From the NCBI RefSeq assembly GCF_005845365.1, contig NZ_CP040509.1, forward strand, positions 1,178,001-1,242,000: a stretch of DNA of 64,000 bases, given 5' to 3'. The stretch is from Rhodoluna limnophila (GTDB lineage: Bacteria; Actinomycetota; Actinomycetes; Actinomycetales; Microbacteriaceae). The notes under the pieces were generated by a model. It did not search any database. It was not told the DNA's origin and worked only from the letters and a program-made list of their open reading frames with translations. The position numbers and the translations under genes are program-made. Below, one piece after another: positions 45,557 to 55,188 of the stretch (its first letter is position 1; each line of letters starts with the position of its first letter).

Positions 45557-46468
45557 TTAGAAGTGCCACGGATACGGAGACCAGTCTGGCTCTCGTTTTT
45601 GCAAGAATGAGTCGCGACCCTCAACCGCCTCGTCGGTGCCATAGGCCAAGCGCGTGGCCTCACCGGCAAAGAGTTGCTGACCTGCAATGCCATCATCAAC
45701 TGCGTTGAATGCAAACTTGAGCATTCGAATTGACTGCGGTGATTTTCTAAGAATTTCTGTCGCCCACTCGACACCGACCTTTTCAAGATCGACGTGTGGC
45801 ACAACGGCATTGACCACACCCATTTCATAAGCTCGCTGCGCGTTGTATTCGGCGCCTAAGAAAAAGATTTCACGGGCAAATTTTTGGCCAGTTTGGCGAG
45901 CAAGGTATGCGCTGCCATAACCTGCGTCAAAAGATCCGACATCAGCGTCGGTCTGCTTGAAGCGGGCGTGCTCGGCGCTGGCCAAAGATAGATCGGCAAC
46001 TACGTTTAGCGAATGACCACCACCAGCTGCCCAACCTGGAACAAGAGCGATAACAACCTTTGGCATAAACCGGATTAGGCGCTGAACCTCAAGGATGTGA
46101 AGTCGACCGTTTCGGCCGGCATCGATGGTTTCGGCAGTTTCACCATCGGCATACTTATAGCCATCGCGGCCGCGGACGCGCTGGTCTCCGCCTGAGCTGA
46201 AGGCCCAGCCGCCGTCTTTGGCAGACGGCCCGTTGCCGGTCAGTAGGACGACGCCAACTCGCGAATCCATCCGAGCGTGGTCGAGGGTGCGGTGCAGCTC
46301 ATCTACGGTTTTTGGTCGGAAAGCGTTGCGAACCTCTGGGCGGTTGAATGCAACGCGAACAATGCCGAGGCTGTTGTGCTTGTGATACGTCACGTCTTCG
46401 AGTTCTTCGAAGCCAGGCACCTCGTGCCAAATAGTTGGGTCGAAGATTTCTGAAACCTTTGAGTTCAT
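45557..46468 (-). CDS. menB: 1,4-dihydroxy-2-naphthoyl-CoA synthase
   Basis: A 303-residue crotonase-fold MenB: NRPEVRNAFRPKTVDELHRT, the oxyanion-hole stretch GWAAGGGHSLNVVADLSLAS, and TDADVGSFDAGYGSAYLAR with the catalytic Asp/Ser region; the C-terminal RDSFLQKREPDWSPYPWHF is typical. It cyclises o-succinylbenzoyl-CoA. Leaderless promoter; divergent from the XRE gene across 105 bp. Confidence 0.97.
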   Translation of the reverse strand: MNSKVSEIFDPTIWHEVPGFEELEDVTYHKHNSLGIVRVAFNRPEVRNAFRPKTVDELHRTLDHARMDSRVGVVLLTGNGPSAKDGGWAFSSGGDQRVRGRDGYKYADGETAETIDAGRNGRLHILEVQRLIRFMPKVVIALVPGWAAGGGHSLNVVADLSLASAEHARFKQTDADVGSFDAGYGSAYLARQTGQKFAREIFFLGAEYNAQRAYEMGVVNAVVPHVDLEKVGVEWATEILRKSPQSIRMLKFAFNAVDDGIAGQQLFAGEATRLAYGTDEAVEGRDSFLQKREPDWSPYPWHF

Positions 46469-46474
46469 GCTTCA

Positions 46475-46480
46475 AGCCTA
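46475..46480 (-). promoter_or_regulatory. -10 hexamer TAGGCT, leaderless start of menB
   Basis: TAGGCT, TGAAGC, ATG on the minus strand. Confidence 0.5.
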
Positions 46481-46548
46481 ACTTGAGGTGCTGCGCGGTA
46501 GCATCCATCCCAATTTGTCCACAAAAACTGGAGACCCATTCTGCGAAG

Positions 46549-46564
46549 TTACCCAATTCGGTAA
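46549..46564. promoter_or_regulatory. Operator-like dyad TTACC-N6-GGTAA on the XRE promoter
   Basis: TTACC (46549-46553), spacer CAATTC, GGTAA (46560-46564). Its last three bases are the first three of the XRE gene's TAATTT -10. The same half-sites and spacing recur as a perfect palindrome at the gene's stop codon. A repressor bound here would block that promoter; autoregulation is inferred. Confidence 0.6.
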
Positions 46565-46567
46565 TTT
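46562..46567 (+). promoter_or_regulatory. -10 hexamer TAATTT, leaderless start of XRE gene
   Basis: TAATTT, TTGGGA, ATG (46574), overlapping the dyad by three bases. Confidence 0.5.
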
Positions 46568-46573
46568 TTGGGA

Positions 46574-46939
46574 ATGCAAGAATGGTTTCTCGATGCAGAC
46601 GAACGACACCGGGGTCGTGGCAATGGCCGCAGCAGTGGCCGGGATAAGCCCTTTGGAATGCCTGCACATCAGATGCAGTTTTACCCGCCTGAATGGACTG
46701 TGCGTGGCCTGCCAGGCCATTACTACCGCACTTTCTCAGCAGCCTTGATCTTTGATGCACGCATGCAATTGGGGCTCAATCAAAAACAATTTGCTGAGCT
46801 TGTTGGAGTGCCACCGTCAGTGATAAATCGACTTGAAAATGGGCGCCGAGACCCGAATTCGGGCACGCTACTTTCAATTCTTTATCGCGCAGGTTTTTTC
46901 GTTGAGGCAAAAGTGATTAGAAATTACCTAATTAGGTAA
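46574..46939 (+). CDS. XRE-family HTH regulator in the men cluster
   Basis: A 121-residue protein. The C-terminal half is a Cro/CI-type HTH: ARMQLGLNQKQFAELVGVPPSVINRLENG, followed by RDPNSGTLLSILYRAGFF. The N-terminal 60 residues are unfamiliar, beginning with a basic, Arg/Gly-rich stretch (DERHRGRGNGRSSGRDK). Start is the ATG 6 nt from TAATTT; a TTG two codons earlier and an ATG at 46658 are alternatives. It resembles the antitoxin-type HTH of some toxin-antitoxin pairs, but no toxin lies beside it. It ends in a palindrome shared with menC. Local regulation is likely. Confidence 0.75.
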   Translation: MQEWFLDADERHRGRGNGRSSGRDKPFGMPAHQMQFYPPEWTVRGLPGHYYRTFSAALIFDARMQLGLNQKQFAELVGVPPSVINRLENGRRDPNSGTLLSILYRAGFFVEAKVIRNYLIR

Positions 46940-46940
46940 T
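46923..46940. promoter_or_regulatory. 18-bp perfect palindrome over both convergent stop codons
   Basis: ATTACCTAATTAGGTAAT contains TTACC-N6-GGTAA, matching the dyad on the XRE promoter. Read on either strand it encodes TAC CTA ATT AGG TAA, so XRE and menC both end in Tyr-Leu-Ile-Arg-stop. It may be a second operator; it is too AU-rich for a good terminator. Confidence 0.6.
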
Positions 46941-55161: not shown

Positions 55162-55188
55162 CCCGTCAAGAATTCTTGACGGGATTTT
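55162..55188. terminator. Terminator with 22-bp perfect palindrome
   Basis: CCCGTCAAG and CTTGACGGG flank AATT; the whole 55162-55183 is self-complementary, followed by ATTTTT. It sits between convergent HAD-IB and the small ribosomal gene. Confidence 0.9.

Follow-up and report, generated by a model that had tools for sequence, protein, structure and literature searches.

A putative HipB-like XRE autorepressor bracketed by two candidate operators between menC and menB of Rhodoluna limnophila

Two copies of the dyad TTACC-N6-GGTAA, one on the promoter and one at the 3′ end of a small XRE-family gene of Rhodoluna limnophila, are probably the cognate operators of the protein that this gene encodes, which, judging from the sequence, would be a self-repressing orphan HipB-like regulator. 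This kind of regulator is ordinary; its position is unusual. The gene lies antisense between the co-directional menC and menB (vitamin K2/menaquinone genes), convergent with menC, which it overlaps by 16 nt, and divergent from menB. The features are listed below in coordinates of the window, i.e. the whole 64-kb stretch of DNA that was analyzed.

45557..46468, minus strand: menB, 1,4-dihydroxy-2-naphthoyl-CoA synthase (NF006186, E 1.5e-166)
46475..46480, minus strand: -10-like element TAGGCT, 6 nt before the menB ATG, of a putative menB promoter separate from that of the XRE gene
46539-46544, plus strand: weak -35 (TTCTGC) of the XRE gene, 17 bp from its -10
46549..46564, no strand assigned: dyad 1, TTACCCAATTCGGTAA, proposed operator O1 on the XRE promoter
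46562-46567, plus strand: -10-like element TAATTT of the XRE gene, overlapping dyad 1, at the same distance from the ATG in the two related carriers (G025 and G059, see below)
46574..46939, plus strand: gene for an XRE-family HTH protein of 121 aa (HTH_3, E 5.4e-12)
46923..46940, no strand assigned: dyad 2, perfect palindrome ATTACCTAATTAGGTAAT, proposed operator O2, holding both stop codons
46924..47943, minus strand: menC, o-succinylbenzoate synthase (NF002782, E 1.9e-125)

The first-pass annotation had reported both dyads, and the sequence bears out their positions: exact copies of TTACC-N6-GGTAA lie at 46549-46564 and 46924-46939 and nowhere else in the 64-kb window. It was also right that dyad 1 overlaps the -10-like TAATTT, that the perfect palindrome spans the XRE stop codon (TAA, 46937-46939) and that menC stops within it too (complement of 46924-46926). 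Since both genes read this palindrome in the same phase, the XRE protein and MenC both end in YLIR, as had been claimed and as the translations confirm. The two dyads form a 21-nt repeat of 86% identity whose start-to-start spacing, initially given as 376 bp, was measured at 375 bp. By itself, a palindrome of 18 bp is no rarity, five perfect palindromes of at least 16 bp being present in the window; a longer one (CCCGTCAAGAATTCTTGACGGG, 22 bp) is found at 55162-55183. With 17 of 22 positions matched, the dyad pair is the best same-arm 5-bp pair within 500 bp in the whole window, and the best pair from 40 simulated 64-kb windows reached only 16 of 22. The 18-mer was also found in one 208-kb viral contig, which is taken as chance.

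Only 6 nt separate the -10-like TAATTT from the ATG at 46574, and the XRE mRNA is therefore probably leaderless; this ATG is the most likely start, the TTG at 46568 being also in frame. As a strict sigma-70 scan found no promoter, the promoter calls rely on the comparison between genomes. The HTH is located towards the C-terminus, at about residues 48-105, residues 1-45 being predicted as disordered in the AlphaFold model. With 46 bits against a gathering score of 23 for Pfam HTH_3, the protein belongs to the XRE/HTH_3 family. Its closest NCBIfam model is couple_hipB, at 36.2 bits, i.e. under the cut-off of 71.65, and the best Foldseek matches of its structural model, which is confident only from residue ~48, are HipB of Legionella and Shewanella (E about 1e-3). 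A toxin-antitoxin pair was ruled out as the XRE gene has no HipA partner: HipA_C was not found in R. limnophila (G000) nor in G059 and G055, and the only one found in G025 is far from the XRE locus. Searches of phage and plasmid records revealed no relatives of the protein; a horizontal or phage source was also rejected, the viral and genome-contig matches reflecting general HTH similarity. Most of the family-wide profile matches are HTH-nucleotidyltransferase proteins, which belong to another family.

Among the 67 genomes of the genus that were compared, i.e. R. limnophila and 66 others searched for the XRE gene, only two of the latter, G025 and G059, have kept it. G048 was discarded as a fourth carrier, its weak match being a different HTH protein encoded in another place. 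G025 has one and the same perfect 18-bp palindrome at both dyads, 286 bp apart: the site aligned to dyad 1 is TTACCTAATTAGGTAA and dyad 2 is identical to that of R. limnophila. The -10 is also TAATTT, at the same distance from the ATG. Over 77 codons of the HTH, the two genomes differ by 10 synonymous changes and by no amino-acid change, and the domain is under strong purifying selection between them. The G025 gene (L019:1464-1740) carries an 89-nt deletion in the part encoding the N-terminus, which shifts the frame with respect to the leaderless ATG; an HTH protein of 83 residues could still be made by starting at L019:1489. Since this would need internal initiation, the G025 copy may be newly broken.

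The carrier G059 has its gene in the same men locus, with an HTH only 41% identical to that of R. limnophila. Here the TTACC-N6-GGTAA dyad is gone and a different, weakly symmetric 21-bp site, CAATTGAGTTATTTAGTAATT, overlaps the homologous -10 (TAATTC, at the same distance from the ATG). This site recurs exactly, in inverted orientation, 179 bp downstream inside the XRE gene. The conservation of the dyads, which the first-pass annotation had made a test of its proposal, is thus seen in G025 for both copies and breaks down in G059, where another duplicated site stands instead. None of the genus genomes devoid of the XRE gene has an intact dyad pair.

Overall, a repeated dyad with one copy on the promoter of the regulator itself, kept in a relative that also has the protein, is the arrangement of a paired-operator autorepressor. 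An XRE dimer bound to O1 would block RNA polymerase and so repress its own gene, as the first-pass annotation had supposed. This step is supported by the location of O1 on the -10, by the retention in G025 of both dyads together with an unchanged HTH, and by the duplication of the site in G059. The strongest argument for cognate operators is that what persists is the duplication of the site of the local protein and not the letters of the dyad, although the conservation of O2 could partly reflect coding on both strands. Other points that weigh against this reading are the small number of carriers, three genomes in all, the possible recent breakage of the G025 copy and, for the G059 site, its weak symmetry and its further inverted pairs at two places away from promoters.

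The role of O2 is much less certain than the O1 step. O2 would help either through binding cooperativity or by forming a roadblock for transcription between menC and menB, a proposal that we make with considerable doubt. Protein bound at O2, at the menC stop codon, could block read-through. The looping and the effect on the men genes that had been suggested together with self-repression find less in their favor: the spacings between sites of 375 bp (R. limnophila), 286 bp (G025) and 179 bp (G059) show no common helical phase, so that looping between O1 and O2 is possible but unsupported, and the geometry makes an influence on menC or menB no more than possible. The boldest form of the proposal, in which the candidate operator bracket would gate both the XRE promoter and menC-to-menB read-through, with protein and operator pair changing together between species, is a long shot.

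The position of the gene also suggests another explanation, which we consider unlikely: a noncontiguous operon, in which the XRE mRNA and a menC-menB transcript would interfere by polymerase collision or through RNase III, the operators only setting the level of XRE. Its architecture, a reverse gene between two co-directional ones, is the one observed here, no terminator-like site was found between the genes, and such a case was demonstrated by Saenz-Lahoya et al. for menE-menC-MW1733-ytkD of Staphylococcus aureus, as reviewed in PMC7154746. The gap between menC and menB, mostly 16-27 nt in co-directional relatives lacking the XRE gene, moreover suggests an ancestral operon. The exception is G055, whose gap of 140 nt encodes a decayed remnant that matches the C-terminus of the G059 protein at 22 of 30 residues. 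However, in each of the eight genomes read at this place, whether they carry the XRE gene or not, menB has the -10-like element TAGGCT at a similar distance upstream of its ATG, and menB may therefore not need read-through; in R. limnophila this element lies ~70 bp from O1. A noncontiguous operon also leaves the duplication of the dyad unexplained. As regards the cluster itself, most genomes of the genus (menC loci L043-L072) have menC pointing against menB and ccsA, while it is co-directional in G000, G025, G055, G058, G008, G020, G022, G018 and G059: an inversion of the single gene menC happened in the men cluster. In the menB tree, the carriers and most co-directional genomes fall in one poorly resolved part.

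Turning back to the preferred reading of cognate operators, no convincing third TTACC-N6-GGTAA-like site was found in R. limnophila or G025, nor any further copy of the palindrome in G025 with up to two mismatches, and a wider regulon is therefore unlikely. The closest dyad-like sites of R. limnophila are located at 138894, 1126322, 1126601, 139382 and 22058; when read, they all fall within genes (stretches coding for ITSSG-type repeats in an MFS transporter and in a repeat protein, the region of 22058 reading as a protein kinase gene), and they were rejected as members of such a regulon. Two more inverted pairs of the XRE site were observed in G059 (L088:1645-1729 and L089:1497-1722). Both are in convergent intergenic regions, crgA/rhomboid and glyoxalase/purM, that are ~300-380 nt larger than in G055, G008 and G058 and rich in tandem repeats. 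These pairs are either additional targets of the XRE protein or a sign that the site comes from a small repeat family.

This raises the question of whether the repeats that flank the XRE gene could delimit a small mobile element or act as recombination sites. The occurrence of the G059 21-bp site in three inverted pairs, two of them in enlarged, repeat-rich intergenic regions, speaks for such an origin. However, the interiors of the three pairs (43 to 184 nt) are visibly unrelated, no clear target duplication is seen at them, a third copy is absent from R. limnophila and G025, the empty men loci do not retain the single dyad that excision would leave, and no recombinase was found at the locus. 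A mobile element is therefore improbable. Least credible is the idea that palindrome 2 terminates transcription in both directions and resembles the promoter dyad by chance: its position exactly on the stop codons of two convergent genes fits, and it could form a 7-8 bp hairpin, but neither strand has a T-run following the stem, no terminator-like site was found, the folding z-scores are only 0.2 and -1.4, the same sequence stands at both places in G025, and the second G059 copy is mid-gene.

If binding is confirmed, this locus would show, in compact natural form, a repressor HTH and a duplicated operator diverging together, and a regulator that has settled inside the respiratory quinone operon of a streamlined 1.4-Mb genome. 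An operator from which two convergent genes also take their stop codons is neat, though a curiosity of minor weight. In the lac system, the main operator O1 is at the promoter and an auxiliary one, O2, lies inside lacZ a few hundred bp downstream. The candidate sites described here similarly combine a promoter operator with an auxiliary one downstream in coding DNA; unlike in lac, the gene of the regulator itself lies between them, and a tetramer or a loop has no support from sequence. The XRE protein resembles HipB in its probable HTH fold, for which HipB heads the structure matches, in a palindromic site of similar size, the HipB operators being TATCC-N8-GGATA (PMC3920265), and in a repeated site, HipB having several cooperative ones at its promoter. 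The XRE protein differs in that its second candidate site stands at the 3′ end of its gene; its motif is TTACC-N6-GGTAA, it scores under the couple_hipB cut-off, and R. limnophila and G059 lack HipA. Lastly, the noncontiguous operon of S. aureus resembles this locus by a reverse gene in a menaquinone cluster that overlaps the 3′ side of menC; the difference is in the inserted gene, here an unrelated HTH regulator that has putative operators of its own.
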